Shown here one piece after another: positions 9,842 to 34,051 of a DNA stretch of 64,000 bases. The notes below the pieces were generated by a model. That model was not told the DNA's origin. It worked only from the letters and a program-made list of their open reading frames with translations, and searched no databases. The translations under genes were made by a program, and so were the position numbers. How positions within the stretch are numbered: position 1 is the first letter of the stretch; every line of letters starts with the position of its first letter. Source of the DNA: Bacteroidota bacterium (GTDB lineage: Bacteria > Bacteroidota > Ignavibacteria > UBA10030); the NCBI GenBank assembly GCA_025454835.1, contig JALONQ010000002.1:1-64000 (forward strand), in the 5' to 3' direction.

Positions 9842-9857
9842 GATGCGTTCCCTTGGC

Positions 9858-12626: not shown

Positions 12627-12647
12627 GGTCGTTCCGTTGAAGGCCGC

Positions 12648-14600: not shown

Positions 14601-14617
14601 GGGCGTCTTCCCTTTGA

Positions 14618-16333: not shown

Positions 16334-16342
16334 GACAGTGTC

Positions 16343-16981: not shown

Positions 16982-17002
16982 ACGGTTGTGCTCCGATGCG
17001 GC

Positions 17003-17761
17003 TCAGGGGTTGGACCGAAGATCGCCGCTGCGCGCTTTCGCGAGGAGCGCTTCGACCATGCGCTTCCGTTCGTCCGCACCGACGAATCCCTGCGGCGGGA
17101 CGGCGGCATCAGCGGGGGCAACGGGTTCCGGCGATTCGACCGGCGCCGCTTCGCCGATGTCAGCAACCAACCGGCGCAGCACATCGCCGACGGCCTGCAT
17201 GAGACCGATGACCGACGCGATCTGCTGGCCCGTGATGTCCTGCACCTGTTGCGCCATCATGACGTTCGTGCAATCATCGCTCAGCTGTTCAAGGCTGGCG
17301 CTCAAGGCGGAGGAAGGCTGGAGGGCTGAGATGCTCTGCCGATGAAGGTCCCAGGCCGACAACAGCGAGGTCAGGTCGGTGTCGGCGGGCAGCTTCGCCG
17401 CGATCGTGTCGATGGCGGCGTGAACGTCGCGCGACGACTCGACGAGGTTCTCGGCACCGAGATGGCTGCGCACCTGCCGCTTGAGGTCCTCGACCTGATT
17501 CATCATGCGGTCGACCGTGTTGAGGATGTCGTTCGACGCTTTCTCCGACGACAGGTTGACACGCTCGAGTTGGGCCGTCGCTTTCGGCAGACGCTCCGAC
17601 GTGATCGCCGACAACGAACGGATCCCGTCGACGAGCGGACCGATCTGCTGCACGAAAGATCCGACCTCTTCGAGCGCGGGCAGTGTCTTCTGACCGAACT
17701 CGAAGAAGACCTTCAGCTCCGAAGCTTTTTCAAGGATGCCGTCAAGCTCTTGGGCATTCAT
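17003..17761 (-). CDS. CheZ-like CheY-P phosphatase, copy 1
   Basis: A 252-residue helical-bundle protein with the motif MMAQQVQDITGQQIASVIGLM. Asp175 and Gln179 are in the same D-x-T-G-Q arrangement as the catalytic residues of E. coli CheZ. The preceding ~165 residues are long amphipathic helices. A Pro/Ala/Val linker (~200-225) leads to a terminal helix RKRMVEALLAKARS that could be the CheY-capturing tail. It lies 40 bases after cheY and 21 bases before the paralogous copy 2. Presumably it ends the CheY-P signal. Having two copies is unusual. Confidence 0.8.
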   Translation of the reverse strand: MNAQELDGILEKASELKVFFEFGQKTLPALEEVGSFVQQIGPLVDGIRSLSAITSERLPKATAQLERVNLSSEKASNDILNTVDRMMNQVEDLKRQVRSHLGAENLVESSRDVHAAIDTIAAKLPADTDLTSLLSAWDLHRQSISALQPSSALSASLEQLSDDCTNVMMAQQVQDITGQQIASVIGLMQAVGDVLRRLVADIGEAAPVESPEPVAPADAAVPPQGFVGADERKRMVEALLAKARSGDLRSNP

Positions 17762-17801
17762 AGTGGTCTCGTGTGAATGGCGGACTTCAATCAGGATCGG
17801 T

Positions 17802-18194
17802 TCAGGCGGCGTTGACGGACGTGACCTTCACGATCTCGTCGATCTTGTCCTTGAGCTCCTGCGGCGTGAAGGGCTTCACGATGTAGCTGTTCACTTTCGC
17901 TTGCAGCGCCTCGATGACGTCCGACTCTGTTCCGCGCGTCGTGATCATGAGGATCGGAAGCTCCGCCGTTGCGCTGGCATTCCGAACTTCCTTCGTGAAG
18001 TCGAGTCCGTTCATCTCCGGCATATTCCAGTCGGTGATGATGAAGTCGATCGCCACGGCGGCAAGCTTGTCGAGAGCCTCCTTGCCGTTGGCAGCTTCGA
18101 CGACCTCGGAGTAGCCGATGGTCTTGAGAGTGTTGGTAATGATCCGGCGGATGGTGATCGAGTCATCCACCACCAGAAATTTCATCGATGCCAT
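17802..18194 (-). CDS. cheY: chemotaxis response regulator CheY
   Basis: A 130-residue single receiver: FLVVDDSITIRRIITNTLK, phospho-acceptor Asp in FIITDWNMPEMNG, the switch Thr in ILMITTRGTESD and Lys in YIVKPFTPQEL. The N-terminal DDSITIRRIITNTL and NTLKTIGY motifs are those of bona fide CheY proteins that act with CheA. It heads the cheY-cheZ-cheZ-cheA-cheB segment. The 226-base gap before it holds a TAGGA-type palindrome at 18318-18331, so it probably has its own promoter. The start at 18194 gives a CheY of normal length. Confidence 0.93.
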   Translation of the reverse strand: MASMKFLVVDDSITIRRIITNTLKTIGYSEVVEAANGKEALDKLAAVAIDFIITDWNMPEMNGLDFTKEVRNASATAELPILMITTRGTESDVIEALQAKVNSYIVKPFTPQELKDKIDEIVKVTSVNAA

Positions 18195-18265
18195 GTGAGG
18201 CCCTTTCGATCGAGAGGTGAGCGTGGTCAGCATGATCGCACGAAGATCGCGTCGTCTGTGGATGC

Positions 18266-18331
18266 AACATACACATCGCGTCGTCCCGTGAGTATCGGCC
18301 CGTTCTTGATTCGCGGGTGGGAATTTTCCTA
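18266..18331 (-). promoter_or_regulatory. candidate activated promoter with TAGGA-N4-TCCTA box ahead of cheY
   Basis: The 14-mer at 18318-18331 reads TGGGAATTTTCCTA, one base from the palindrome TAGGA-N4-TCCTA seen at 32771 and in 25869-26194. On the minus strand a TATGTT (-10-like, 18271-18266) follows without a good -35. With a start near 18259 the box is centred about 65 bases upstream, as for class I activators. The promoter itself is inferred. The rest of the 18195-18420 gap shows nothing else clear. Confidence 0.5.
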
Positions 18332-18420
18332 CGAGGGGTCGGGTCTGGGACGAGGGTCGGTCGGGCCTCTGTCCCATGGCAGGGGGCGACGCAAAGGGCG
18401 ATTTTGCCCGAAAATCGAGC

Positions 18421-18807
18421 CTAGGGGGCTGGCTGCGGGTGGTCGGCGAGCAGGCGGCGGACTTCTGCACAGACCTGCTCCCGACTGAAGGGTTTTTCGA
18501 GGTAGGCAAAGGCTCCGAGCTCGCGCCCCAGCTCTTTTTCCGGCTGATCGGTGATGGACGAGAGGATGATGACCGGAAGGTCTCGGTAGGCGTCTGACGA
18601 GCGGAGATTTCGAATGAGCTCAAATCCGTCCATCTCCGGCATGTTGAGGTCTGTGATCACCAGGTCGACTGGCTCTAGCGGCAGGCGCTCCAGCGCCTCC
18701 ATGCCGTCGCAGGCGGTGACCACCCGGATCCCCTCCAGTTGCAAGGCGGCCGAGACGAATTTTCGCACCGTCGCCGAATCATCCACCACTAGGACCACGT
18801 TCTTCAT
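18421..18807 (-). CDS. single-domain response regulator (CheY-like)
   Basis: A 128-residue receiver: VVLVVDDSATVRKFVSAAL, phospho-acceptor Asp in LVITDLNMPEMDGFEL, Ser in VIILSSITDQPEKELG and Lys in FAYLEKPFSREQV. It is a second CheY-type protein in the same operon, 4 bases after cheR and before the gap that leads to cheY. It could be a phosphate sink or feed a different output, since the residues after the conserved Lys differ from those of CheY. It has no DNA-binding domain. Confidence 0.9.
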   Translation of the reverse strand: MKNVVLVVDDSATVRKFVSAALQLEGIRVVTACDGMEALERLPLEPVDLVITDLNMPEMDGFELIRNLRSSDAYRDLPVIILSSITDQPEKELGRELGAFAYLEKPFSREQVCAEVRRLLADHPQPAP

Positions 18808-18811
18808 GGCG

Positions 18812-19669
18812 CTACCGTTCCTTCTTGTACAACGTCGTCTTCGGGAAGCTCACGACGCGGAATGCGTTGGAGATCCCGTGCAGCAGTTCCGAATAGCCGA
18901 TGACCAGATATCCGCCGAAGCGGAGACTGTCGTACAGGTCGGACACGACCTGCACTTTCGCCGGAGTGTCGAAATAGATCATCACGTTCCGGCACAGAAT
19001 GAGGTCGAAGTCGCGCATCGACCGCATGAAGCCCCGTTCGAACAGGTTCAGATGTTGGAAGCGTACCATCGCCCGGATCTCATCTTTGACGGTCCGTCGC
19101 TGTCCGTCGACGGTAAAGTACTTCTGCAGGTAGTGCGGCGGAGTATTCCGGGTCGCGTAGTCGCCGTACGTACCCTTCTTCGCCGTGTGAAGCACCGTCG
19201 AACTGATGTCCGTTCCCACGACCTCCATGCGCATGCCGGGAAAGCGATGCCGCAGCTTCTCGTGGAAGATCATGGCCAGCGTGTACGGCTCCTCACCGGA
19301 GGAGCAGGCCGCACTCCAGACCCGGACGGCGTCTGCCCCAGCGGCCCGTCGCGCCTGGAAGACCTCCGGCAGCACGACCGTTTCGAGCGCGTCGAACTGC
19401 GGCTCGTTACGGAAGAAGAAGGTCTCGTTGATCGTGACGGCGTCGCAGAGATACTCGAACTCGAGGTCTTTCTGAGCCCCGTACCGGAGCACGTGGAGAT
19501 ATTCCTCGAACCCTGCCAGTCTCAACAGCTGGACCCGCTTCCCCAGACGCCCTTCGAGCAGATACTTCTTCTTTTCCTGAAAATAGATCCCCAATCGTTC
19601 ATAGATGAAGTCCCGCAAGACGCGGAATGTGGCATCGCTCATCGCCACGGCGGGGGCGGTCACCGTCAT
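18812..19669 (-). CDS. cheR: chemotaxis methyltransferase CheR
   Basis: A 285-residue SAM-dependent glutamate methyltransferase acting on MCPs. It shows the N-terminal helical domain (FIYERLGIYFQEKKKYLLEGRL), then the catalytic domain with AACSSGEEPYTLAM, VVGTDISSTVL, and the FDLILCRNVMIYFD and GGYLVIGYSELL motifs. The start at 19669 follows the HEAT-repeat gene by 44 bases. A second ATG 27 bases later (19642) is possible, and neither has a strong ribosome site. The partner esterase CheB is in the same strand run. The MCPs here lack a visible C-terminal NWETF-type tether. Confidence 0.94.
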   Translation of the reverse strand: MTVTAPAVAMSDATFRVLRDFIYERLGIYFQEKKKYLLEGRLGKRVQLLRLAGFEEYLHVLRYGAQKDLEFEYLCDAVTINETFFFRNEPQFDALETVVLPEVFQARRAAGADAVRVWSAACSSGEEPYTLAMIFHEKLRHRFPGMRMEVVGTDISSTVLHTAKKGTYGDYATRNTPPHYLQKYFTVDGQRRTVKDEIRAMVRFQHLNLFERGFMRSMRDFDLILCRNVMIYFDTPAKVQVVSDLYDSLRFGGYLVIGYSELLHGISNAFRVVSFPKTTLYKKER

Positions 19670-19713
19670 CGAGCGTATATCGATCGGGGGGAGCACGGGG
19701 GGACCGGATCGGG

Positions 19714-21183
19714 TCAGTTGGCGGTAACGGCTTCGAAGCCCGGCAGGGAGATGCCTCGCGCTTCGAGGGCGGCTTGGGCCGTCATCCGCACGGTCTCTTC
19801 CTCGTCCTGCAGGCAGGCGAGTGCGATGTGCAGGACACGCTGGTCCTCCACGTCGAACAGCAATTCGAGCACATGGACCTTGAACCACGGGTCCGACCCT
19901 GACAACATCGACATCAGGAATCCAACGGCGCGATCGCCGTCGAGGCGGAACATGGTCTCAAGCAGGAAGAAGCGCACCTCTTGGTCTGCATCGGGCCACA
20001 GCGCTTCGACGGCCGCCGAAGCACGGTCGACATCTTCGGCTGTGATGTCGACGAGGCGGCCTTCGGCATACCCCTCCATGATCTCACGAGCCAGCTTGCC
20101 CAGCAGCAACACGATCTCCCGTCGTCCGGCGACCGGCTCGCCCAGCACGGAAGACAGGGCCTGGAAGGTCCGCGGCCGGTGGGCGAGTTGCGCGAACAGT
20201 TGCAGATCGAGGTCGTCATCATGCCCGAGCGCGCGCGCGAGGTCGCTCGTGATCGCCTCGCCTTCGAACGCCTGCAGAGCCCTGGCGGCGCTCAGACGAA
20301 CGGGGATCGGGTCCTCGGCCAGGCTTCGACGAAGGTCCTCCACCCAGTCCCCGAGGTCCACATGACCGTCAGAGTGCTCCGCGATCAGAACGATGGCGTG
20401 GAGGATCATCCGGCGCAGGGTATCTGCGGACCGTGACAGTCGCTGACGCAGGGGTTCGAGGGATGCCTCGTTGCCGCAGACGGCCAGCGCTTCCGCCAGC
20501 GCATACCATGTTACATCGTCCAGGAAGCGATGCTCGTTGTCCATCCGGGCCAGCTCTGACAGGAAGATGGTCGCCCTCGGCCCACCCAGCCGGCCGAGCG
20601 TCTCCACGATCTGCGTATGGGCGAACGTGCAGCGCGGAAAGATCTCCGTGATCGGCTGCACCGCGGCCCTGTCGCCGATCTTCCCCATGGCTTCGAGCGA
20701 TGAAACAACGACGTTCGGATCGGGGTCGTCCAAAGCCTCGACGAGCCACGGGGTCGCTTCGGTCGACATGATCTCGCCAAGGATATCGATGGCGAACTTC
20801 CGGACGTCCTTGTTGGGATCCTTGACGAACGGAAGCAAGGGGGCTTGGGCGACCTGGCCAAGCCGCATCAGGAGCGACGAAGCCAGATTCCGCGTACCGA
20901 TGTTGCGTGACGCGATGGAAGGCGCCAGGGCGCGCGCGACGGAGGGTCCGCCGATCCGAAGCAGGGACCGTGCGGCCGCATCCCGGACCCCCTTGTTCGG
21001 GTCCTCCAACGCAGCGACGAGGGCCATCTCGGCGTGGGGGCCGCCTGCCTCGGCCAGCGCTTCCGCCGCCTGACGCCGTGCGTCGGGGTCCGGGGCGGTC
21101 AACACCAGGCTGAAGAGACTGCGCTGTTCATCGTTCATCGTGGCAGTGGCGACGGCGCTCATGCCGGTCAGTCCTTCAGGCAT
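19714..21183 (-). CDS. HEAT-repeat protein in chemotaxis operon
   Basis: A 489-residue, almost wholly helical repeat protein. About ten HEAT/PBS-type units are readable, e.g. [38 protein letters not shown] and [20 protein letters not shown], each with the D-P-x-x-x-V-R turn. No catalytic domain, signal peptide or membrane segment is seen. HEAT arrays are protein-binding scaffolds. The gene lies between an MCP (8-base overlap) and cheR, so it may organise the receptor array or bind MCP tails (inference). A second start at 21162 with GAAGGA upstream is equally plausible. Confidence 0.85.
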
Positions 21184-22813
21184 GCGGCAACTCCAGCTCG
21201 TATCGTGAATCGACCCGTCGGATCGGGCGGTGCGTGGCGGCGAGAACCGGGCTGACCCGTTCCGCTGCCGGCGCCTCCCCCTTCAATCGGAACTGGCCGA
21301 TGAGCTCCTGCAAGTTCTCCGTTAGCCGGTTGAGGTCCTCCGCCGTACGGGCGATCTGTTGAATGCCAGTGGCCGTCTCGCGCGCAACGCTGCTGATGCC
21401 GTCGACGCTCTTCGAGATCTGCTCGCTCGCCGACGCCTGGAGTTCGCTCGCCGACGCGATCTGCGCCACCATCTCGGTGACCGTCTGCGACATTGACACG
21501 ATGCCGCGCAACGACGACCCGGCGGCGTCGGCCAGCTTGATACCGTTGTCCACTTCGACCGTCCCCTGCTCCATCGACCGGACCGCTTCACCCGTGTCGG
21601 TCTGGATCTTCTGGATCATGTCGGCGATCTCTTTCGTCGCCGTCGTCGTCCGTTCGGCCAGTTTCCGGACCTCATCGGCGACCACCGCAAAACCCCGTCC
21701 CTGCTCTCCGGCCCGGGCCGCTTCGATGGCCGCGTTGAGGGCCAGCAAGTTCGTCTGGTCGGCGATATCGTCGATGACCGAGACGATCTGTCCGATCTGG
21801 GCGCTTGACTTGCCCAAGGCACGGACCGTTTCAGCCGACGCCTGGACCACGTGCGCGATCCGCTTCATGCTCTGGACCGATTGCTCCACGACCTTTCCGC
21901 CCTCATCGGCAGAAGCACGCGCGGCGCGAGCCGTCTCTGATGTGCCGACGGCCCCACGGGAATTGTCGGCTGTCGTGCGGGAGAGATGCTCCACCGATGC
22001 GGCCACGGCCGTCACCTGCGAGGTCTGTTCGCGTGCACCCGCCGCCATCTCTTCCGTGCTCGCCGAGATCTCGGCCGAGGCGCTCGCCACCGCCGCGGAG
22101 GCCTCGACAAGGCGCCCGATGGTGCCCCGCAACCGTTCGACCATTCGCATGAATGACGATGCCAGCTGTCCGACCTCGTCGCCGGACGTGCTGACGATAT
22201 CCACTGTCAGATCTCCCGATGCGATGAGCTCAGCCTTCTCGGCCAGGTCCTTCAACGGCTGAAGGACACGGCCAAGCATCATCGTCGCCCCGAGGGCGAG
22301 AAGGAGGAACGCCGACGAGATGAAGACCGACCAGAGCATCGCCGACGTCCTCGTCGCATTCACCGATTCGTACGAGATCTCAACACGCGCCATGCCGATG
22401 GGGGACCCGCCGCCTCGAGAGTACACCGGCATCTGGAACTGCGCCCGATCGTTTCCCTGTCCGTCGGCGAGCGTCGCCCACGTCACGTCGCCAAAGCGTT
22501 CGCCGTCGACCGCCAGGCCCGCCGAACGTCCCCGTTCGATGAGCTTCGCCTGACCAGCGTCAAGGAACGCGACGTACCGGACATCGGCCGTCGACAGCAC
22601 GGATTCGACGAGAGGCGCCAGTTGGCTCGAATCCTGCATCAGGACGCCCATGCGACCGTTGGACGCAAGCTCCGACACGACCGAAGCTCCGCGCTTCCGG
22701 AATTCGTCATCGATGACGCTGTTCATGAGCAGGCTGAAGACGACCGACAGCGAGACGGCCAGCATCGCCAGCAGGACAAGGGTCATGAGTTGTATCTTCG
22801 TTTGGATCTTCAT
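21176..22813 (-). CDS. methyl-accepting chemotaxis protein
   Basis: A 545-residue transmembrane receptor. It has TM1 near residues 8-30 ([22 protein letters not shown]), a small periplasmic sensor of ~120 residues, TM2 near 150-172, HAMP (~172-225) and a signalling domain whose hairpin tip reads [20 protein letters not shown]. Adaptation helices with Q/E pairs flank it. The start at 22813 is preferred, with AAGGAG 7 bases before. A gene for a small periplasmic protein precedes it by 30 bases and might be its ligand-binding partner. The C-terminal end has no CheR-docking pentapeptide. Confidence 0.95.
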
Positions 22814-22843
22814 AGAAAGCTCCTTGTGCCCCGTGGGCACTGA

Positions 22844-23395
22844 CTACTGCACGACGTAGGCGATCGAACCACTTTGTTCGGCAGGGACCACCGCGCCGAC
22901 CACGTTGGCCGCCTTCTGATTCACATGGACCACGAACTTGCCATTCTCGCTCTGAATGGTACATAGCGCCCCGCCCGTCAGTTGTTGCATCGTCGGGACG
23001 CAGAGACCCACTCGGTCGAGCGCCGCGTTTTCACGCAGGAATTCAACGCTTGCGCCTTCGAACCAGTCTCCGCCGCCCGGCATCGCCAGCAGCAGATCGA
23101 TCTTGTTCTCGCTGACGAGCTTCTTATAGAGGAGCGACACCTCGCGCGCGTTCTTCGGACGGGCCACGATGACCGTGAGACCCTGCCCCAATCCCGCCCG
23201 GGTCAACGATTGTACATCTTCGTCGCTCAGCTCCGCCCCGATCACGCCGAGGGTCTTCGACGCCGGCTTGAGGGACTTGAGCAGGAACAAGCGCTGCCCG
23301 TACGCTCCTTTGACCTGGGCGGAAGCTTCGAAGGTCGACCCCGTGGCGATCAACATGGCCAGCAGCAGGCTCAGGGTACGTGCGATGGTCTTCAT
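22844..23395 (-). CDS. periplasmic ABC_sub_bind-like protein between CheW and MCP
   Basis: A 183-residue protein with a cleavable signal peptide (MKTIARTLSLLLAMLIATG...ASAQ). The mature part shows alternating strands and helices with LGVIGAELSDEDVQSL, LTVIVARPKNAREVSLLYKKL and LLLAMPGGGDWFEGASVEFLREN, resembling one lobe of periplasmic solute-binding proteins of the ABC_sub_bind type. It is about half the length of a full binding protein. AAGGAG precedes the ATG at 23395. Lying between cheW and an MCP, it may present a ligand to that receptor. No transporter genes are near. The family call is by eye and tentative. Confidence 0.7.
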   Translation of the reverse strand: MKTIARTLSLLLAMLIATGSTFEASAQVKGAYGQRLFLLKSLKPASKTLGVIGAELSDEDVQSLTRAGLGQGLTVIVARPKNAREVSLLYKKLVSENKIDLLLAMPGGGDWFEGASVEFLRENAALDRVGLCVPTMQQLTGGALCTIQSENGKFVVHVNQKAANVVGAVVPAEQSGSIAYVVQ

Positions 23396-23436
23396 GGCTC
23401 TCTTCTCCTTGCGTGACCGAGGGCGTGGGCGGTCGG

Positions 23437-23928
23437 TCAAGCCGCCGTGAGTTGTTCTTGTTCCGTGGACGTGAGGATCCGCTCGAGGTCGATGAGGATG
23501 AGAAGCCGGTCCTCGAGCTTTCCGACGGCTGTGATGTATTCCGACCCGATCCCGGCCACCATCGGCGGAGGCGGCTCGGTGATGTTCTTTGGAATACGAA
23601 GGACCTCCTGCACGCTGTCGACCACGAAGCCGACGACGCGGCCCTTCAACTCCACCACGATGATGCGGGTGTTCTTGTCGTTCTCTTTTTTGGAGAGGCC
23701 GAACCGCTCGCGCAGATCGACGATGGGAATGACCCGGCCGCGCAGGTTGATGACTCCGCTCACGAACGGGGGCGCGTTCGGCACCCGTGTGATCTCGACC
23801 ATGCGGTTGATCTCCTGGACCCGCAGAATGTCGAGTCCAAATTCTTCCGACCCGATGTGAAAGCTGACCAGCTGCAACAGCTCTTCTGAGGTCGTGGTGC
23901 GAGCGGATGTTTGCATTGCGGATGCCAT
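23437..23928 (-). CDS. cheW: chemotaxis coupling protein CheW
   Basis: A 163-residue CheW that links MCPs to CheA. The SH3-like pattern is complete: LLQLVSFHIGSEEFGLDILRVQEI, VPNAPPFVSGVINLRGRVIPIVDLRERFGL, and the second half VVGFVVDSVQEVLRIP and LEDRLLILIDLERIL. The frame continues upstream inside the MCP gene, but the ATG at 23928 is 13 bases after that gene's stop and has GAGGA six bases ahead. It sits between an MCP and the periplasmic protein in one operon. Confidence 0.95.
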   Translation of the reverse strand: MASAMQTSARTTTSEELLQLVSFHIGSEEFGLDILRVQEINRMVEITRVPNAPPFVSGVINLRGRVIPIVDLRERFGLSKKENDKNTRIIVVELKGRVVGFVVDSVQEVLRIPKNITEPPPPMVAGIGSEYITAVGKLEDRLLILIDLERILTSTEQEQLTAA

Positions 23929-23941
23929 GTCTCTTCCTCTC

Positions 23942-25672
23942 TTATGACGGGGTGACGCGTGAGGTCGTCCGCGGGACGACGTGGCCGTTGGCGCGGACCG
24001 CCAGGTCGCCGATCGATTCGCGGCGGGGTTCGTGTTTGCCCGGCCCGGACAGCTGGAATCGGGCCATAAGTGCTTCCAGATTCTCGGTAAGCCGATTGAG
24101 GTCCTCGGACGTGCGGGCCACCTGCTGCAGGCCTGTCGCCGTCTCCTGCGTGACGCTGCTGATCCCTTCAACGCTCTTGGCGATCTGCTCGCTCGTGCGG
24201 GCCTGCTGTTCACTGGCCGAAGAGATCTGCATGACCATGTCGGAGACCTGGCGGGAGATCGATTCGATCTCGCGGAGCGACGATCCCGCCGCATCGGCGG
24301 TCGACATGCTGCCGTCGACGTCGCGCACACCCCGCTCGATCGTCGACACGGCCGATGACGTATCCTCCTGGATGTGACGGATCATCTCGGCGATCTCCTT
24401 CGTCGCGGTCGTCGTCCGCTCGGCCAGCCGACGGACCTCGTCGGCCACGACGGCAAAGCCGCGCCCCTGTTCACCGGCACGCGCAGCCTCGATCGCCGCG
24501 TTCAGGGCCAGCAGGTTCGTCTGATCGGCGATGTCGTCGATGACGGCGACGATCTTGCCGATCTTCGCGCTCGACTGCCCCAGCGACCGCACCGTGTCGG
24601 CCGACGCGCGAAAGACGTCCACCATCCGACGCATGCCGTTCACACCTTCGCCGACCACGTGTCCGCCGTTCGACGCGGCCTGTTGCGCGTCGCGCGCCGT
24701 TTCCGCCGTGACCGACGCATTTCGGGAATTCTCGAGGATCGTCTTGCTCATTTGTTCGACGGCCGCGCTCACCTCCATGACCTGGGCACTCTGTTCCTGC
24801 GCTCCCGCCGCCATTTGCTCTGTGCTCGCCGAGATCTCCGATGCGGCGCTCGCCACGGCCGCGGAGGCCTCGCCCACCCGAAGGAGCGTGTCTTTGATCG
24901 TATCGGTGAAGATGTTGAACGAGCGCATGAGATCCCCCACCTCATCCCGGCGCTCGGCGTCAAATCGCGTCTGCAAGTCGGCCGCTTCGATGCTCTTGGT
25001 GACCCGTCTGATCGGGACGGTGATCGATCGCACGATCCAGATGCCGGCGACCGACCCGGCCACGATCATGGAAAGGACCAGCCCGATCGTGATCAACTGA
25101 GCCCGATCGGTCACTGAGTTGGCTTCCTGAATGACAGCGTTGCCGTCGCGGACCGAGATCGCCGACAGAGCGTCCAAACCGGCCTTGATCCCGCCGACGC
25201 TCGCTGCCATCCGTCCGCTGACGATCGGTCCGACCGATGCGGTCTGCCGACGATCAACGGCAGCCTGCAACTCCTGCGCCGCCGAGAAGAAGTCCGTCAT
25301 GTGCCGTTCGACGCTGACGAACACGCTGCGCTCCTCGTCCCCGGTCATGGACCCCTTGAGGGTCCGCATCGATTCGAGCAATTCCTCTTGGGCGCGGTTC
25401 AGCATGACAGGGTCGACCTGTCGGAGCAGCGTCGCACTCATCACGTCGGCCTGATACGTGTGAAACCGTTCCGAGAACTCCTTCAGGGCATCAAGATGCT
25501 CGATCTCGTGATGGAAGCTCCCTGCCACGGTGTCGGACATCCAATCGATCGTGACCAGCCCTGTGATCCCAATGGAGACGGTGAAAGCGATGGCGCCGAC
25601 GGTGGCGACCGCCAGCTTTGTCCTGATCTTCAGGTCGAGCATCCACGTACGCATCACAGTGAGTGTTCGCAT
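23942..25672 (-). CDS. methyl-accepting chemotaxis protein (4HB-type sensor)
   Basis: A 576-residue receptor, first gene of the chemotaxis run. It has TM1 near residues 18-40 ([22 protein letters not shown]), an all-helical periplasmic part of ~150 residues as in four-helix-bundle MCPs, TM2 ([21 protein letters not shown]), HAMP, and a signalling domain with tip [20 protein letters not shown] nearly identical to the MCP at 21176. Tandem ATGs occur at 25675/25672. GAGG lies 6 bases before the second, which is used here. It has no CheR-docking tail. Its upstream region carries the palindrome cluster. Confidence 0.95.
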
Positions 25673-26104
25673 CATCTGCCTCGGGAGATCGCGTTGTCGA
25701 GATCCTTCTTCACGAATCAACGGTTCCAATTTAGCAGGGCGCCGGGGGTGGCAGTATCAGAGCCGGGACGATTGTGCCGTGAGATGAATCCGACACGCAC
25801 CCCCCGTCCGGATGAGGTGTGGTAGGAAATCGTGAGGTAGATCGACCGAAGGCATCGCTCGAAGGTCATAGGACATTTCCGATGGACATCAGAAAAGTCC
25901 TAGACACCCCCCGGGTAGTCGACCCGGCCGCCAAAGGCATGGAGGTGGGCGCCCCGGAACGCCGCTTTCCCCGCCGACGAGAGGGCGGAACACGATGGAT
26001 GCACACCGAAAATATGCGAGATTTGCGGTGGCCGTAGGAGATTTCCTAGGCCCATAGGATTTCGCCGATACGACCCGACAGCTTTCGTCGTCGTGCGGGG
26101 AGTC

Positions 26105-26124
26105 GCATCAGAATATTCTGATGC
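26105..26124. promoter_or_regulatory. perfect 20-bp palindrome
   Basis: Arms GCATCAGAAT and ATTCTGATGC meet with no spacer, a different motif from the neighbouring TAGGA boxes. It lies 4 bp from the best TAGGA box. It could be a second operator or the 3' hairpin of a transcript. No T-tract supports a terminator on either strand. Confidence 0.5.
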
Positions 26125-26174
26125 GGATAGGAAATTTCCTACTCGGTGGGGGGTGAGACGCCGCGCTTGAGGGG

Positions 26175-26200
26175 CCGGGGTAGGATATTTCCTACCCCGG
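26175..26200. repeat. 26-bp inverted repeat enclosing a TAGGA box
   Basis: CCGGGGTAGGA and TCCTACCCCGG are perfect 11-bp arms around TATT. It lies 27 bases past the stop of the NarL-type gene, so it may serve both as a 3' hairpin for that transcript and as a regulator site. No T-run follows on the minus strand. Confidence 0.55.
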
Positions 26201-26226
26201 CAGGAAAACGCTGAGGTGGAGGGCTG

Positions 26227-26859
26227 CTACGAAAGGAGCTTGTTGTGGAGCGCGTAGGTGACGATCTGCGCGTTGTTCTCCATGTTCAGCTTTTCGAGGA
26301 TGTGCGTCCGATGGGTACTGACGGTCTTGACGCTCAGAGAGAGCTCCGCGGCGATCTCCTTGAGCGAACGTCCGCGGGCCAGCATGAGCATGATCTGGTA
26401 TTCCCGGTCCGAGAGGGTCTCGTGCGGCATCTTTGGCGAACCCTTGCTGACGTTGAGTGCCAACGACTCTGCCAACCCTTCGGAGACATAGACCTTGCCC
26501 GCCGCGATCCGCCGTATGGCCGTGATCAGCTGTTCAGGAGCGCTGTCCTTCGACAGGTAACCTGAGGCACCCAGCCGCAGGGCCCGCATGCCAAAGACCT
26601 CCTCCGGGTTCATGCTGAGCACCAGAATGCCAAGGTCGGGCTGCTCTGACTTCAATCGTCCGATCGTCTCGAGTCCATCCAACTTCGGCATGGTCAGGTC
26701 AAGGATGAGCACATCGAATTCCTCGCCCCGAACCTTCTCCAGCACCTCCAGCCCATCCCCCGCTTCGCCGGCCACCTCGATATCGCTCGCTTCCTTCAGA
26801 ATGTTCTTCAGCCCGCGCCGAACGACGGGATGGTCATCGGCAATGAGGACCTTGATCAT
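26227..26859 (-). CDS. NarL/FixJ-type response regulator
   Basis: A 210-residue DNA-binding regulator. The receiver (~1-120) has VLIADDHPVVRRGLKNIL, phospho-acceptor Asp in VLILDLTMPKLDG, and the Ser and Lys in VLSMNPEE and YLSKDSAPEQL. The LuxR-type HTH (~143-205) reads LSDREYQIMLMLARGRSLKEIAAELSLSVKTVSTHRTHILEKL. Such proteins bind palindromes of the RcsB/NarL kind as dimers. The ATG overlaps the stop of the NarX-type kinase (ATGA), making that kinase its likely partner. The palindrome cluster begins just past its 3' end. The frame is open further upstream, but 26859 starts the domain correctly. Confidence 0.95.
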   Translation of the reverse strand: MIKVLIADDHPVVRRGLKNILKEASDIEVAGEAGDGLEVLEKVRGEEFDVLILDLTMPKLDGLETIGRLKSEQPDLGILVLSMNPEEVFGMRALRLGASGYLSKDSAPEQLITAIRRIAAGKVYVSEGLAESLALNVSKGSPKMPHETLSDREYQIMLMLARGRSLKEIAAELSLSVKTVSTHRTHILEKLNMENNAQIVTYALHNKLLS

Positions 26860-28313
26860 GACGGAGATGCTCCTTGCGGTGCGGCACTCACGGGCATCTC
26901 GACGACGACCGTGGTGCCATGGTTTTTGCGACCGGTGATAGTGATCCGGCCATTCCACGGCCGGACCCGTTCGCGCATCCCGACGAGCCCCAGGGAGGTC
27001 GATCCCTGTAACTCAGCGGTGTTGATGCCGCGTCCGTCGTCACGCACTCTGAGACGGATCATCCCGTCGTCCATGCGCAACTCGACCTCAATGAACCGCG
27101 CATGCGCATGACGGGCGATGTTCGTGAGCGCTTCCTGAAAGACCCGGTACAACGCCAGCGCCAGGTCGCGTTCCAACGCGATCTCCGGCGGGTCGATCGT
27201 GACGAGGGCCCGGATCCCAAGCTTCTTGGTGAACTGCGTGACGTCGTACTGAAGGGCACCCCCCAATCCCAACGCATCTAGTTGGGGCGGGCGCAACTCC
27301 CGGGCGATCCTCTTGACCGATCCCAACGACTCCTGCAGGGATTCGAGGACCTGGTCCAGTCGCTCGTCGACAGCCGGACCGCCCTGAGCGTGGTTCAACT
27401 TAAGCCAGCTCAGGTCAAACTTCAAGACCGTCAGCATCTGTCCAAGTTCATCATGGATCTCCCGCGAGATCCTCATCCGCTCGGCTTCCCGTTCCCGCTC
27501 CAGGCGCTCCGCGAACAACTGCAATTGACGGCGCTGGGAGGCCAATTCTCGCTCATCCTCTTTGCGCTGGGTGACGTCGCGCGCGACAAGGACCACCCGT
27601 TCGATGCTGGTCCGATTATGGAACCTCTGTCCCGAAAGCTCAAGCCAATGCCAGTTCCCGGAGCCGTCCCGGTATCGGAACTCACCCCGCGGCCGCGAAC
27701 CCTGCAGTTCCGTACGCAGCGCCGCCTGGTCGTCAGCGTGGAATCCCTTTCCGATCGGTGTACCGACGAGGCTCGAAGGGTCGACCCCCAAGAGCAACCG
27801 AAAATTTGGACTGGCGTACTGCACAATGCCCGCAGCATCCAACTCGGCCACGAGATCGGCAGAATGCTCGACCAGACGTCGGTAGCGATCCTCACTCTCG
27901 GCCAGCGCTTCCTGCGCCTGTCGCCCTGCCAGACGGTGGCGCGTCTCTTCGATCGCACGGCGCACCGCCGGCCCGAGGCGCGTGAGCTTGTCTTTGAGCA
28001 CATAGTCCGTTGCGCCCGTCCGGAGGGAACTGATGGCCACCTCTTCTCCGAGCGCGCCGGAGACAAAAACAAACGGAAGGTCGGGGAAACGGCCGCGCAC
28101 CGCTTGCAGGGCTGCGATACCGTTGTAGGACGGGAGGGAATAGTCTGACAGGATGATGTCGAAGCGTCGTTCCTCGAGCGCCGTCAACAGCTCACGCTCT
28201 GTCTGCACACGTACGACGTCGAACACGAGCCCTTCGCGTCGAAGGGTATGGCAGATCAGATCAAAGTCGGTAGCGTCGTCTTCGAGCGATAGGATCTGGA
28301 GCGGCGCATCCAT
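26856..28313 (-). CDS. NarX-type soluble sensor kinase (REC-PAS-HisKA_3)
   Basis: A 485-residue cytoplasmic kinase. An N-terminal receiver (~5-125, ILSLEDDATDFDLI, IILSDYSLPSYNG) is followed by PAS/PAC (~145-265), a coiled linker (~265-295), HisKA_3 with phospho-histidine in RISREIHDELGQMLTVLKF, and a compact HATPase (~385-480, VFQEALTNIARHA, DDGRGIN). HisKA_3 kinases pair with NarL-type regulators, and one follows with a 4-base overlap. The receiver at its front could accept a signal from the large kinase or the Rcp1-like regulator encoded upstream in the same operon. Confidence 0.95.
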   Translation of the reverse strand: MDAPLQILSLEDDATDFDLICHTLRREGLVFDVVRVQTERELLTALEERRFDIILSDYSLPSYNGIAALQAVRGRFPDLPFVFVSGALGEEVAISSLRTGATDYVLKDKLTRLGPAVRRAIEETRHRLAGRQAQEALAESEDRYRRLVEHSADLVAELDAAGIVQYASPNFRLLLGVDPSSLVGTPIGKGFHADDQAALRTELQGSRPRGEFRYRDGSGNWHWLELSGQRFHNRTSIERVVLVARDVTQRKEDERELASQRRQLQLFAERLEREREAERMRISREIHDELGQMLTVLKFDLSWLKLNHAQGGPAVDERLDQVLESLQESLGSVKRIARELRPPQLDALGLGGALQYDVTQFTKKLGIRALVTIDPPEIALERDLALALYRVFQEALTNIARHAHARFIEVELRMDDGMIRLRVRDDGRGINTAELQGSTSLGLVGMRERVRPWNGRITITGRKNHGTTVVVEMPVSAAPQGASPS

Positions 28314-28333: not shown

Positions 28334-28789
28334 TCAGGCGGTACTGCGCGAAGATTCCGGCGGCGGCTCGTTGACAGACCCCCAGAATTCACCGAGCAAC
28401 CGCACATGCCGCAGATGGTCCGTGAACTCCATCGACTTCACGACGTACCCGTTGACCCCTCCTCGATAGCAGGCGATGAGATCGCGCTCCTCGCGAGACG
28501 ACGAAAGAACGACGATGGGTAGCGTCCGCAAGACCTCATCCTCGCGGATCTGCCGGACGACCTCTAGTCCATCGACCTTCGGCATCTTCAGGTCGAGGAT
28601 CAGGAGCGCCGGGATCGCGCGTGGACGGCCGGCAAAACGTCCGCGGCAATGCAGATAATCGAGAACATCGGCGCCGTCGTTGGCCACGTCGACGCGCGAC
28701 CCCATGCCGGCATCGCTGAGCGCTTTCAGGGTCAGCTCACGGTCCTGCGGATCGTCTTCGGCCAGAAGGATACGACGATTAGGGTTCAT
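28334..28789 (-). CDS. Rcp1-like single-domain response regulator
   Basis: A 151-residue receiver with ILLAEDDPQDRELTLKAL, phospho-acceptor Asp in LLILDLKMPKVDGLEVV, VVLSSSREERDLIACY and Lys in GYVVKSMEF. The extra loop after the third helix (HCRGRFAGRPRAIPA) and the CYRGGVNGYVVK motif mark the Rcp1-like group. It lies 48 bases after the large multi-PAS kinase, whose HisKA is of the type that pairs with such regulators, and 20 bases before the NarX-type kinase. It has no output domain, so it probably relays phosphate or binds a protein target. Confidence 0.9.
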   Translation of the reverse strand: MNPNRRILLAEDDPQDRELTLKALSDAGMGSRVDVANDGADVLDYLHCRGRFAGRPRAIPALLILDLKMPKVDGLEVVRQIREDEVLRTLPIVVLSSSREERDLIACYRGGVNGYVVKSMEFTDHLRHVRLLGEFWGSVNEPPPESSRSTA

Positions 28790-28837: not shown

Positions 28838-31800
28838 TCACACGGTGAAGGAGAAAGTCGCGCCGGCGTCGGGCTTCGCGGAAGCCCAAGTCTTCCCGCC
28901 ATGACGATGAACGATCCTCCGCACGTTGGCCAGCCCGATCCCCGTCCCTTCGAATTCTTCAACCGTGTGCAGACGCTGGAACACGCCGAACAACTTATCG
29001 GCATAGGCCATATCAAATCCCGCTCCATTATCCCGGATGTGAAACGCCATCCGTCCGCTGCCGTCGTCGGCCGGCAACGTGGTGATCGCGACGCTCGCTT
29101 CGTCGCGTCCGCGCGTGAACTTGATCGCATTCGAGAGAAGATTCGCAAAGACTTGTTTCAGAAGCGTCCGGTCGGCTTGGACCGTCGGCAATTCCTCACA
29201 GTCGAGGTCAATGCGACGCCCCACCCGGTCGGGCTCCAGCTCCATCCACACTTCGCGGACCAGTTCCGCGGTGTCAACCTTGTCGCGCCGCAACTCGGTA
29301 CGACCCAGCCGCGAGAACGCGAGGAGGTCGTCGATCAGGATCCCCATCCGTTTCGCGGAACCCATGATGGCCTCGAGGTAGCGCCGGCTCGTGGGGTCGA
29401 GCGTTCCATTGATGTGGTCTCGAAGCATCTCGACGTAGCCCGACACGTGACGGAGCGGTGCCCGGAGGTCGTGTGACACCGAGTAGCTGAACGCTTCCAG
29501 TTCACGGTTGGCGGATTCCAGTTGGGCCGTTCGATCGATGACCCGACGCTCCAGTTCCGCGTTGAGGCGTCGCACCTCTTCTTCAGAGCGACGCCGCTCG
29601 GTGATGTCCTCTTTGACGGCGATAAAGTGGGTCGTGACGCCCTGCGAATCACGCACGGGGGAGATCGATGCGAATTCCCAATAGAGGTCCCCGTTCTTCC
29701 GCCTATTGCAGAGCTCACCGTGCCACTCGTGGCCCGACGAAAGGGTCTTCCACAGGTCCTGGTAGACCTCGCCCGGAGTCGTGCCCGATTTGAGGATCCG
29801 CGGATTCTGGCCAAGGACCTCCTCACGCGCATAGCCTGTCGTGTGCGTGAAGAACGGATTGACGTATTCAATCGCGCCTCGAGCGTCGGTCATGACGATC
29901 GACACTTGGCTCTGGTCCACGGCGACGGAGAGTTTCCGCAACTCCACCTCCGCACGCTTGCGCTCGCTGATGTCTGTGATGATCGACATCATCCGGACGA
30001 TGCGGCCGCTGGCGTCCGGCAACCCGGTCGCGGAGATCGCCACGTCAACCGTATTCCCATCTTTGCGCCGGTACTGAGACTCCGCGTTCGTGATCGATCC
30101 GCCTCCGAGGACGGCATCCTGCATGTCCACCTCGGCGTCGGCCAAGTGGGCCGGGACAAATGGCAGCGGCTTTCCGACCACGTCGACGCTACCCCAGCCG
30201 AACATCTGCTCGGCGGCGCGGTTCCAGAACTCCACGGTCCTGTCTTCACCTACGATGAGGATCGCCAGCGGAGAGACCTCGAGCACGGTCCGTAGCGCCT
30301 CGGAGGTCGACCGGAGCTGTTCCTCCGCCTGCTTCGTGAGCGTCAGATCGGTCGCGATCGTGACGCGCCCGCGGGGGATGCCGTCCTCACCGGGAATGAC
30401 GGATGTCGAAAGGAAGGCGGGGAACTCCGAGCCCGACTTGCGCCGGTGGACCTGCTCTCCGCGCCATGCTGCAACGTCCGCCAGACCGCCTCCGGATGGC
30501 TCTTCGATCGAGAGCAGTTCCGAACGCCGGCGCCCGATCGCCTCCGACCGCGTGTAGCCGTACGTTTCCTCGAACGCGTCGTTGGCATAGATGAGCGAGC
30601 CCGTCAGGTCCTCGATCGTCACGCTCTCCGAGATGCTCATCATCGCGTGGGCGAGCAGATGCACGTGTTCCTCCACCTGCATACGCTCCAGCTCGGCAGC
30701 CGCACGGGCACCGAAGACCGTCATGATCGACGACAGGATGTCGGAGTCGTCGATCGGATGCATACCGATCACCGCCAAGACGCCGAGGGGCTTGTTCGAA
30801 GATGACATCAACGGAACGCCGAAGTAACTTTCGGCGCCGATGTCGTGGAGCATCGGACTCGCGGGGAAGAGCTCCCGGAGACCGCTGGCGAAGAAGGTCG
30901 TCTTGCGGCCGTAGACATGCTCGCACGGACTTCCGACAAGGTCGCATTCGAACTGAGGCGCTGCCGTCCCCTGATCCGCGACTGCCAGGGTCCGGAGCAT
31001 CGGGGACGGTCCGGAGACGACGCGTGAGATGAAAGCAAGCCGTACGCCCAGGGCGCGGCTCAGCTCACGCACAAGGTCTTGCAAGAACTCCCGGCCGGTC
31101 GTCGTCGCCGTGCCTCGCACGATCGCCTCGAGGGCTCCTTCGGTCATGCGGCGGTGCGTGATATCGGCCATCGTCCCCGCCATGCTGCGCGGGTGTCCGT
31201 TCTCAAGGCGGTACAGCGTGCCGCGTACTTCCACCCATCGGATCGAGCCGTCGGGACGTCGGATGCGGTGCGTGATGGTATGAAGGTCCTTCGTCCAGCC
31301 GTAGAGCGCATCATACATGGTACGGCGCGCCCGCCGCTGCTCCTCACCCGGGATCATCCGAAGATACTCCTCCGGATCGCCGCCGAATCCGTTCGGCACC
31401 AACCCGAAGATCCGCTCAAGCTGCTCAGACCAGACCATGCGATTGGTCTCGAAGTCCCACGACCAGGTCCCCATCTCGGCCGCCTCGAGCGCCAGCCGCA
31501 GCCGGTCCTCGCTCTCCCCCAGTCTCGCCTCCGCCAACTTTCGGTCCGTGACATCGCGGAAGATGCCTTGCGCTCCGTCGTAGGTGCCGGGGGTGGACGC
31601 ACGCGGCGAGGCGGTGATCTCGATCGTTCGGTGTTGGCCGTCTCGACGGCGGATCGACAGTTCATAGATTGAACGGCGACCAGTTCTCCGCTCCTCGATC
31701 TCCCGCTCCATGGACTCGAGTTGGCCGTTCTCGAGGTAGTCGGTCAATCGGCAACCCACAAGCCCATGCTCCAACTCGCCGAAGATCTCGTCGGCCGCGC

Positions 31801-32629
31801 GATTGCTGTACAGGATGGTCTCATGGGCATCGACGATGGTGACCCCTTCGCTCAGATTCTCCACCAACGACCGGAAGCGCTCCTCGCTCCGTCGTAGTTC
31901 GGTCGAAGCTGATGTCCATTGCTCCACCATACTGTTGAAGGCCGCTCCGAGGGCGCCGAACTCATCTCTCGACGATGCGTCCGCTCGTGCGTCGAGACGG
32001 CCCGACGCAATGGACGACATGGTGCGGACCAGTTCCGTAAGAGGGCGCGTGAGCCAATTGCTCGCGACGAAGGCCACAGCGATACCGAAGAACAACAGGA
32101 CGAGACTTCCAATATGGAAGGTGGCAACCTCTGCCTTGATCTCGATCAGGTCAGAGGTGAGGTCGTAGCCGACAACGAGGGTTCCGAGGTGATGGCCGTG
32201 CACTTCCAGGCGTTCGACGGTGCGCAAGAGCCGGTCGTGCCGGGTCAACTCGCTTGCGCGGCTTGCCGAAAGACTCGGTGCCTTCTCCGTCGCCGGACCG
32301 AGCCAGGCCAACGGAGTCCCCTGTTCATCGAACACGCCCGCGTACACGACAGTGGAATCGAACGGTACCCGCGCCAGCGTGCCCGACGCTGAGAGGACAC
32401 CTTGCCGGGGCAGGGTCTCGATGAAAATGCGACCGGCCATTGCCGTGGTCTGCTGGCTGCGGCGCAGGGCCGAGCCAAGGACCTCCCGCTCGATCACCGT
32501 CGGCATGCGTACACCGACATAGATCGCAACGATCGCGACCAGCAGCAAGATGAGCATCGCGATCTTGGCGCGGACCGTGAACGGTCCGAAGCGACCGGGC
32601 CCCCGATGATATGCGGCGGGGTCGGTCAT
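28838..32629 (-). CDS. membrane multi-PAS/GAF sensor histidine kinase
   Basis: A 1263-residue inner-membrane kinase. In order: TM1 (~22-42, AKIAMLILLLVAIVAIYVGV), a periplasmic sensor of ~130 residues, TM2 (~175-195), HAMP (~195-250), two PAS/PAC (~255-500), GAF (~510-660), three more PAS/PAC (~665-1040), HisKA with phospho-histidine in SYSVSHDLRAPLRHV, and HATPase (~1150-1263, LLSNAIKFTRG, DNGAGFDM, GTGIGLANV). This type commonly signals to Rcp1-like regulators such as the one encoded next. It starts a four-gene two-component operon with a well-formed promoter and TAGGA box upstream. Confidence 0.95.
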   Translation of the reverse strand: MTDPAAYHRGPGRFGPFTVRAKIAMLILLLVAIVAIYVGVRMPTVIEREVLGSALRRSQQTTAMAGRIFIETLPRQGVLSASGTLARVPFDSTVVYAGVFDEQGTPLAWLGPATEKAPSLSASRASELTRHDRLLRTVERLEVHGHHLGTLVVGYDLTSDLIEIKAEVATFHIGSLVLLFFGIAVAFVASNWLTRPLTELVRTMSSIASGRLDARADASSRDEFGALGAAFNSMVEQWTSASTELRRSEERFRSLVENLSEGVTIVDAHETILYSNRAADEIFGELEHGLVGCRLTDYLENGQLESMEREIEERRTGRRSIYELSIRRRDGQHRTIEITASPRASTPGTYDGAQGIFRDVTDRKLAEARLGESEDRLRLALEAAEMGTWSWDFETNRMVWSEQLERIFGLVPNGFGGDPEEYLRMIPGEEQRRARRTMYDALYGWTKDLHTITHRIRRPDGSIRWVEVRGTLYRLENGHPRSMAGTMADITHRRMTEGALEAIVRGTATTTGREFLQDLVRELSRALGVRLAFISRVVSGPSPMLRTLAVADQGTAAPQFECDLVGSPCEHVYGRKTTFFASGLRELFPASPMLHDIGAESYFGVPLMSSSNKPLGVLAVIGMHPIDDSDILSSIMTVFGARAAAELERMQVEEHVHLLAHAMMSISESVTIEDLTGSLIYANDAFEETYGYTRSEAIGRRRSELLSIEEPSGGGLADVAAWRGEQVHRRKSGSEFPAFLSTSVIPGEDGIPRGRVTIATDLTLTKQAEEQLRSTSEALRTVLEVSPLAILIVGEDRTVEFWNRAAEQMFGWGSVDVVGKPLPFVPAHLADAEVDMQDAVLGGGSITNAESQYRRKDGNTVDVAISATGLPDASGRIVRMMSIITDISERKRAEVELRKLSVAVDQSQVSIVMTDARGAIEYVNPFFTHTTGYAREEVLGQNPRILKSGTTPGEVYQDLWKTLSSGHEWHGELCNRRKNGDLYWEFASISPVRDSQGVTTHFIAVKEDITERRRSEEEVRRLNAELERRVIDRTAQLESANRELEAFSYSVSHDLRAPLRHVSGYVEMLRDHINGTLDPTSRRYLEAIMGSAKRMGILIDDLLAFSRLGRTELRRDKVDTAELVREVWMELEPDRVGRRIDLDCEELPTVQADRTLLKQVFANLLSNAIKFTRGRDEASVAITTLPADDGSGRMAFHIRDNGAGFDMAYADKLFGVFQRLHTVEEFEGTGIGLANVRRIVHRHGGKTWASAKPDAGATFSFTV

Positions 32630-32719
32630 AGGAGGAGAGCGAACGAGGGTTTGGAGGACATGTTTCCGTCGAAAGGATCACCGCGGAACGGGTCGCGTGA
32701 CCGCGGTCTATCCACTAGG

Positions 32720-32748
32720 AGTGTACAAGCCTCTCAGGACGGCATCAA
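32720..32748 (-). promoter_or_regulatory. sigma-70-like promoter of the two-component operon
   Basis: On the minus strand TTGATG (32748-32743) and TACACT (32725-32720) are spaced by 17 bp, giving a start near 32713 and a leader of about 84 bases before the kinase ATG at 32629. The TAGGA box at 32771-32784 is centred about 65 bp upstream of this start. Confidence 0.6.
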
Positions 32749-32770
32749 CTTCAAAATGGCTGGAACGCTA

Positions 32771-32784
32771 TAGGAAAAGTCCTA
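32771..32784. promoter_or_regulatory. TAGGA-N4-TCCTA operator-like box
   Basis: TAGGAAAAGTCCTA has perfect 5-bp arms and the same form as the boxes in 25869-26194 and at 18318. It is the only such site between the kinase operon and the PBP-like gene, and its spacing to the promoter suits a class I activator. Binding by the NarL-type regulator is inferred. Confidence 0.6.
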
Positions 32785-32819: not shown

Positions 32820-32853
32820 CGAAGGCCGCCGGGCGAAGACTCACCCGGCGGCC
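32820..32853 (-). terminator. intrinsic terminator of PBP-like gene
   Basis: A perfect 10-bp GC stem (32824-32833 with 32844-32853) and a 10-base loop begin 28 bases past the stop at 32881. On the minus strand it is followed by TTCGTTTGT. Confidence 0.7.
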
Positions 32854-33300: not shown

Positions 33301-33841
33301 GACTGGTCCTTTCAATGCGAAGGTGATCGCCGCCCGAGGCGGCCTTGCGACAACAACGACAACGAACGGTATCCGGCAAATGGCCTCATCACCGGCACTA
33401 CGGAAGTAAAATACTGACCGATTCCCACAACCTCAATGGATGGTCTGACCCTCGATCGCTCTCGCGTCGCTCAGCGACCGAGCACTTCTTCGAGGTCCCG
33501 AGAAGCGAGGATCGTCATCCTAGAACGTGTGACCCGCTCATCGGTTGCACTTCGCCTCAAATCCTTGCGTGACAATGTGATACGGCTCTCGGTGTTCGCT
33601 CCCGGGGCACGTTCGACGTTTCGACGAAGATCAGACATCGCACCGCGGACCCCCATGCTCGACCCAGCCGAAGCCATACGGCACGAGGGACCTGCCGACT
33701 GACTCTGCTGTACACAATGAAAGCCTCCACGCGGAGGCCTTCATTGTTGATCGCGCAGAGATCACAGCGCGAATCGCAGCTTCGTCCTCTCTCGGAGGGC
33801 ATCCGATCGAAACCCCCGATCGACGATCGAAAACCCTTCGT
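33301..33841. other. 541-bp stretch without recognisable gene
   Basis: Open frames here lack ribosome sites and family-like protein patterns. It holds a 15-bp hairpin at 33714-33747 (one mismatch; arms ACAATGAAAGCCTCC and GGAGGCCTTCATTGT), which could end transcription of the tRNA region read leftward. Nothing else is clear. Confidence 0.5.
33714..33747. terminator. hairpin downstream of tRNA-Arg region
   Basis: A 15-bp stem with one mismatch and a 4-base loop, GC-rich at the loop end and A/T-rich at the base. It lies past the tRNA fragment on the minus strand. There is no long T-tract, so terminator function is likely but unproven. Confidence 0.45.
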
Positions 33842-33970
33842 GACCCCGGCGCGATTCGAACGCGCGACCTACGGTCCCGTCCCGATCAGAGATCGGGACG
33901 CAGATCCTCGTCCCGCCAACGAATTCGCGAAGCGAGTTCGGGCGAGACGGGACTTAGAAGGCCGTTGCTC
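33842..33970 (-). pseudogene. rearranged tRNA-Arg remnant split by palindromic DNA
   Basis: Bases 33842-33874 are identical to the 3' half of the intact tRNA-Arg (33979-34011), including the acceptor 3' strand, T-arm and end of the anticodon stem. Bases 33953-33970 match the anticodon-loop/5' anticodon-stem part (34012-34029). Between them lies a 78-bp insert (33875-33952). It starts TCCCGTC, ends GACGGGA, and contains hairpins TCCCGATC/GATCGGGA and a CGAATTCGCGAAGCGAGTTCG palindrome. The 5' acceptor and D-arm are missing, so it cannot form a tRNA. The insert is far too short for a group I intron. Confidence 0.75.
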
Positions 33971-33977
33971 AGCTTGG

Positions 33978-34051
33978 CGACCCCGGCGCGATTCGAACGC
34001 GCGACCTACGGCTTAGAAGGCCGTTGCTCTATCCAACTGAGCTACGGGGTC
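33978..34051 (-). tRNA. tRNA-Arg (anticodon TCT)
   Basis: A complete 74-base cloverleaf on the minus strand. A 7-bp acceptor (GACCCCG/CGGGGTC) is followed by a D-arm with AGTTGGATA loop. The anticodon stem ACGGC/GCCGT carries loop CTTCTAA, giving anticodon TCT. The T-arm GCGCG/CGCGC has loop TTCGAAT, and the discriminator is G. CCA is not encoded. A partial copy lies immediately downstream. The 136 bases between it and the small lipoprotein gene show nothing else. Confidence 0.95.

Follow-up and report, generated by a model that had tools for sequence, protein, structure and literature searches.

Introduction

BvgA and DegU are both response regulators of the NarL/FixJ type, and autoregulation of bvgAS is reportedly named in the title of a 1991 paper by Roy and Falkow. 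Promoters of the Bacteroidota carry a TTG element at -33 and a TAnnTTTG element at -7. The high-affinity site of BvgA is a pair of inverted TTTCCTA heptads (PMC4314077), and at the PfhaB promoter head-to-head BvgA dimers, starting from the primary site TAAGAAATTTCCTA, are placed every 22 bp, with the last one abutting the -35 element (PMC7250471). DegU of Bacillus subtilis is described as activating the fla/che operon, and so flagellar genes, in its unphosphorylated form through inverted-repeat-like sites (PMC2245950).

The locus considered here lies in a window of 64,000 nucleotides (positions 1 to 64,000 of contig JALONQ010000002.1, assembly GCA_025454835.1, forward strand) from a Bacteroidota bacterium of the Ignavibacteria; coordinates given without a contig are positions in this window. 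Literature searches on Ignavibacteria chemotaxis, regulators, promoters, binding motifs, type IV pili, and NarL-linked chemotaxis operons gave nothing on this system among the matches listed, as judged from the listed entries, and the exact box TAGGAAATTTCCTA occurs in none of the papers searched. The scheme that we favour, at somewhat better than even odds for the whole of it, is that a predicted dimer of a NarL-type regulator at a box upstream of a sensor kinase gene activates the regulator's own operon, in addition to chemotaxis genes.

Results

Gene content of the kinase operon

The operon consists of four minus-strand genes with short gaps: a 1263-aa sensor kinase with HAMP, several PAS, GAF, HisKA and HATPase domains (28838-32629, ATG at 32629), a single receiver-domain protein (28334-28789), a receiver-PAS-HisKA_3-HATPase kinase (26856-28313), and a 210-aa response regulator (26227-26859) whose ATG overlaps the stop of the preceding kinase gene. 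The regulator is of the NarL/FixJ type, a receiver domain (PF00072, 7.6e-29) being followed by a GerE/LuxR helix-turn-helix (PF00196, 2.2e-18), and its best PDB matches are VraR and NarL; gene order and domain matches thus bear out an earlier statement, made in a first-pass annotation of this DNA, that the kinase operon ends with a NarL-type regulator gene. Among the best 25 of 104 NCBIfam families, the regulator is below the curated cut-offs of the named equivalogs (UvrY/SirA/GacA, MctR, NarL and others), the best being PRK09483.1, which scores 177.4 bits where 280 is required. HisKA_3 kinases are more natural direct partners for NarL-type regulators than the 1263-aa HisKA kinase, and by virtue of its type the HisKA_3 protein is the likeliest direct partner of this one.

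On the 3′ side of the gene that precedes the operon, a terminator-like hairpin of 13 pairs (32824-32853, minus strand) would isolate the kinase promoter; its fold is strong (z -4.35), and terminator-like matches are expected 0.7 times by chance in that stretch. Further upstream, tandem tRNA-Arg(TCT) genes are called on the minus strand at 33840-34051 (33975-34051 and 33840-33926). The second call looks, by eye, like an incomplete copy interrupted by an insert, and could represent a pseudo-tRNA or the scar of an integration.

Promoter usage and the kinase promoter

Since a scan with an E. coli-type consensus found no promoter in the kinase upstream region, promoter usage in the organism's own genome was examined, using about 491 kb with 393 codon-scored gene calls, 191 upstream regions and, among these, 131 tandem regions. 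The tandem regions showed a single sharp spacing peak, TTG-N20-TAnnnT, with 16 matches at a start-to-start offset of 23 (15 of them independent of the kinase promoter, which is itself counted), against a mean of 1.17 at other offsets (sd 1.26, largest 6) and 4 antisense matches at offset 23. A cruder gene call (153 upstream regions) gave no clear promoter signal; sensible gene calls are thus needed for the peak to emerge. All 191 upstream regions together contained 36 matches, 35 of them of readable length; in these, TTG was followed by A (18) or C (13), and 26 had TAnnTT. A Bacteroidota-type TAnnTTTG was also tried as the -10 of this genome and was rejected, there being no clear enrichment in the tandem regions (3 sense, 1 antisense) and one occurrence in the 35 promoter matches. 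The consensus read from the 191 upstream regions, TTG(A/C)-N19-TAnnTT with rigid spacing, falls between the sigma-70 and Bacteroidota types.

The only TTG-N20-TAnnnT in the kinase upstream region is the promoter that the first-pass annotation had named, a -35 element TTGATG (32743-32748) and a -10 element TACACT (32720-32725) on the minus strand with a 17-bp spacer. Both the letters and the coordinates were right, and the genome-specific statistics lend them support, although position 5 of TACACT is not the T usually seen there. The kinase operon would be transcribed from this housekeeping-type TTGATG-N17-TACACT promoter, with a start expected near 32713, about 7 nt past the -10 element, and a leader of about 84 nt.

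The predicted regulator box, TAGGAAAAGTCCTA in plus-strand letters (32771-32784), is centred at 32777.5 and the -10 element begins at the 46th nucleotide downstream of it. Relative to the inferred start the centre is at about -64.5, in agreement with the roughly 65 bp claimed earlier. Class I activator sites are centred upstream of the -35 element on a fitting helical face, at about -61 to -72; the value of about -64.5 depends on the predicted start, and the earlier description of the box as classic class I is loose, the layout resembling instead that of BvgA promoters. The box had also been called perfect, which is true of its TAGGA/TCCTA arms and not of its 4-bp core, AAAG, which is not palindromic. 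From the density of TTG-N20-TAnnnT in the genome (0.09 per kb per strand), a match at offset 46 or 47 from the box would arise by chance about 2 times in 10,000, by arithmetic done post hoc.

Distribution of the box in the genome

The window holds 13 matches (10 places) to the box pattern at up to three mismatches, where 0.88 would be expected by chance, and none of 100 shuffles reached that count. The perfect form, TAGGANNNNTCCTA, occurs five times in 3,225,489 bp, at 26035, 26128, 26181 and 32771 in the window and at position 26982 of contig C9. Four of the five are within 6.8 kb of the kinase operon; three of these follow the gene for the NarL-type regulator, and the fourth precedes that for the kinase. 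At up to one mismatch a reversed control pattern is commoner in the genome than the box pattern (80 and 16 per strand, respectively), and weak box matches elsewhere in the genome were for this reason not used as evidence.

The cluster behind the regulator gene comprises two weaker boxes, with one mismatch (25869-25882) and two mismatches (25889-25902) to TAGGANNNNTCCTA, and three perfect ones: TAGGAGATTTCCTA (26035-26048), TAGGAAATTTCCTA (26128-26141), and one between the regulator and MCP genes (26181-26194) that is set inside a longer inverted repeat (26174-26201; 12-bp arms, fold -26.1 kcal/mol, z -5.2). The same gap between the regulator and MCP genes holds a perfect 22-bp palindrome, CGCATCAGAATATTCTGATGCG (26104-26125), whose centre is 20 bp from that of box 26128; it has a strong RNA fold and may be an operator or a hairpin. 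Further boxes in this genome, which are candidate target sites, are found beside an aminotransferase class V gene (C9, 26982), before an iron-sulfur/NAD-binding operon (C26, 41257), and on contig C3 (100769). Contig C9 also encodes two more large histidine kinases (8967-14995 of locus L127), about 2 kb from the fifth perfect box; one of the two kinases shares 62% identity with that of the window across its core.

Co-occurrence of the regulator and the box

A regulator of at least 71% identity was present in 9 of the 198 genomes searched (own genome included), all of one family, the next best being at most 54% identical; the orthologues in the eight relatives are 71-79% identical to the regulator of the window. 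The recognition-helix stretch KTVSTHRTHIL is unchanged in eight of the nine orthologues and reads KTISTHRTHIM in G005. Exact TAGGAWWWWTCCTA was found in all nine family genomes with an orthologue (own genome included) and in 3 of the 23 without one (Fisher p = 8e-6, uncorrected for relatedness). Counts of exact sites and of the reversed pattern were 24 and 4 in the nine genomes with an orthologue and 3 and 3 in the other 23, and a genome of the same genus, G001, has neither an orthologue at E 1e-60 nor an exact box. This co-occurrence predicts that the regulator very probably reads the kinase box. That another NarL-family regulator of the genome binds it instead is a reading we regard as improbable: there are nine GerE matches in the genome, and six of the others are well above the Pfam cut-off, but box presence tracks the presence of this particular regulator across 32 genomes, and the perfect boxes cluster around its gene.

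Some exact boxes of the relatives (C55 and C118 of G026, C67 of G028, C16b of G009) have common flanking letters and by eye look like a repeated element. In G017 a receiver-HisKA_3 kinase precedes the regulator in two frames of 345 and 215 aa (L164, 11890-13711), split or misassembled.

Boxes at chemotaxis genes and at other kinase operons

Beyond the box cluster lies a minus-strand chemotaxis cluster (13069-25729) encoding CheB, CheA, two CheZ-like proteins (one of them below the Pfam cut-off), two CheY-type receivers, CheR, a HEAT protein, an MCP, a 198-aa protein with no Pfam match, a CheW-domain protein and a second MCP. A box with one mismatch (18318-18331) is situated between the two cheY genes, upstream of cheY2 (17802-18194, minus strand), which encodes a receiver-domain protein and is the first gene below it. 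A box occupies the same place in all eight relatives, perfect in seven and with one mismatch in G017. The HEAT protein, cheR, both cheY, the cheZ-like genes, cheA and cheB are on the same contig as the regulator in the relatives apart from G017 and G026, where they are on another (by eye and by CheA search); a cheW-like gene follows the regulator in seven of the eight (by Pfam in G005, G009 and G024, by eye in the rest), MCP frames taking its place in G017. In the G026 assembly cheY2 is cut short at about 62 residues, next to a stretch of unknown bases, with the box and -10 intact. Matches to flagellin and FliG were absent from the own genome, and a PilT family match was over the cut-off; the chemosensory cluster could on these grounds be serving type IV pili.

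Downstream of the cheY2 box, a -10-like YAnnTT starts at 47 nt in all eight relatives and in the window, where it reads TATGTT (18266-18271, minus strand). A -10-like element starts at 46 nt from an MCP site of G017, and at 47 and 46 nt in a kinase operon common to G009 and G030. In this last case (L197 1071-4508 and L198 4867-8288) a perfect box with similar -10 spacing precedes genes for 151-aa and 209-aa proteins, which have no Pfam match in G009, and for a 667-aa PAS kinase. When YAnnTT[GA] was counted downstream of all 27 exact family boxes in both directions, 8 occurrences fell at offset 47 and 2 at 46, whereas an offset has 0.31 on average. It was missing at 46/47 from the three exact boxes of genomes without an orthologue, and from 14 of the 24 in regulator-bearing genomes in either direction. 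The MCP-side boxes of the window were tried as sites with the cheY2 spacing and discarded, no -10 match being found at 45-47 toward the MCP gene.

At 46 nt, the distance from kinase box to -10 is nearly that found at the conserved cheY2 promoters of the eight relatives, which supports the spacing. Measured against this pattern, the kinase TACACT fits the looser TAnnnT only, and its best score at offsets 45-47 against the cheY2-site profile has p of about 0.057. (G026, a near-copy of G028, was omitted from both the -10 and the second-dimer profiles.) Three others among 19 site-directions of the own genome score similarly: the C3 site on plus (0.018), the C9 site on minus (0.051), and box 26181 on plus, away from the MCP gene, where the match is weak (0.057). 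Judged on sequence alone, the poor fit of the kinase -10 to the strict profile is the main weakness of the predicted autoregulation, the case for which turns on a full TTG-N20-TAnnnT promoter being in the right register from the box.

The profile gives its best match within 130 nt (11.2, compared to 0.16 for the TACACT register) to CCATTTTG, a minus-strand element (32759-32752) whose first base is 12 nt below the box and which belongs to a pattern, [GC]CA[TC]TTTG, seen only four times on both strands of the window. Were the operon to start from this element, bound regulator would cover the -35 region and autoregulation would be negative. We consider such a repressor site unlikely, as CCATTTTG has no TTG 20 nt before its CATTTT to serve as a -35 partner and is without the TA usual in the general TAnnTT -10 of this genome, and as TTGATG-N17-TACACT is the sole promoter of the genomic type in the region.

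The four relatives with DNA upstream of the kinase (G005, G009, G024 and G026) all lack a box there at up to two mismatches, though the kinase start used in G024 is uncertain because the frame upstream of that kinase looks broken. This comparison left out G021, G028 and G030, where the contig ends inside the operon, and G017, whose contig starts inside a same-strand frame and shows no box when one mismatch is allowed. The window thus has a box upstream of the regulator-encoding operon, with a promoter in matching register, that none of the four relatives shares, and autoregulation through it, as predicted here, either is not shared by the family or arose in this lineage along with a new kinase.

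The same contrast, with cheY2 boxes in eight of eight relatives and kinase boxes in none of four, is what would be expected if the kinase box were bound and yet of minor effect, a chance or recent site or one that tunes a constitutive promoter, the real regulon being chemotaxis. It also fits that account that a -35 TTG is present in the kinase promoter itself, whereas the cheY2 promoters of the window and of G017 have no TTG at that spacing. We give it a modest share of the probability, slightly more than the repressor: a perfect box together with a promoter in matching register is unlikely to be a chance occurrence, and the similarly spaced box before another kinase operon in G009 and G030 (domains checked in G009) indicates that control of kinases recurs.

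A second dimer site was sought with a 14-bp profile at 11 related box-linked sites. The best average match is at 9-22, its centre lying 22.0 bp from that of the box, with 6.27 of 14 letters (next best 5.45), and the kinase site matches at 6 of 14, which is no better than several other offsets there. Since the sites are related, a second dimer at a 22-bp step is only suggestive. An ATC-N11-GAT pair noticed by eye near the second dimer was dropped, as it falls outside the heptads.

Discussion

In the activating reading that we prefer, a dimer of the NarL-type regulator, the product of the operon's last gene, would bind the kinase box with high affinity, presumably in a way that depends on phosphorylation. 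A first dimer on the inverted heptad near -65 would probably activate, and a second, near -43 on degenerate DNA 22 bp downstream, may sit against the -35 element, so that both could touch RNA polymerase. Dimers at these two positions favour activation over repression, and positive feedback would be expected; positive autoregulation of the kinase operon is a likely prediction. On cheY2-cheZ-cheZ-cheA-cheB the regulator would act at almost the same distance, and the box cluster at 25869-26194 would probably let it control the MCP/CheW operon, so that active sensors would lead to more chemosensory proteins and to more of the sensing system itself. Probably, then, the regulator drives a chemosensory regulon plus, in this organism, its own operon.

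An autoregulatory loop by itself is commonplace and of a well-known type, and the predicted control of the chemotaxis cluster is the more general of the two findings. It ties chemosensory gene expression to a two-component system, in a genome that gave no match to flagellin or FliG, and it provides a poorly known lineage with a regulator and its candidate box, along with a promoter consensus and a set of targets, all open to direct testing. A broader proposal, which we put forward tentatively and hold to be rather less probable than its negation, is that in Ignavibacteria-like bacteria a NarL-type regulator specific to the family employs the heptad code of BvgA, with its 22-bp dimer phasing, for a chemosensory regulon, possibly serving type IV pili in an organism whose own genome is without flagella, and that different species have put different kinases, here those of the regulator's own operon, under the same promoter layout. 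The BvgA site layout would then have been found outside Bordetella.

The promoter architecture resembles that of the Bacteroidota in having a TTG about 20 nt before TAnnTT, and differs in that the full TAnnTTTG appears in only 1 of 35 matches. The likeness to DegU is of a response regulator at inverted-repeat-like sites controlling motility or chemotaxis genes; DegU, however, acts on flagellar genes, whereas the present genome has no flagellin or FliG match and does have one to PilT. A further resemblance is to the sites of BvgA. The inverted heptad TAGGAAA/TTTCCTA is exact at 26128 and agrees at 12 of 14 letters in the kinase box, and the BvgA arrangement of a strong upstream dimer with weaker dimers at 22-bp steps has a possible counterpart in the peak at 22.0 bp over the 11 related sites, among which the kinase site is undistinguished. 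Here only two dimer positions are indicated, the second of them weak, and the targets are chemosensory in place of virulence genes in a separate lineage; the likeness drawn here is one of site layout.
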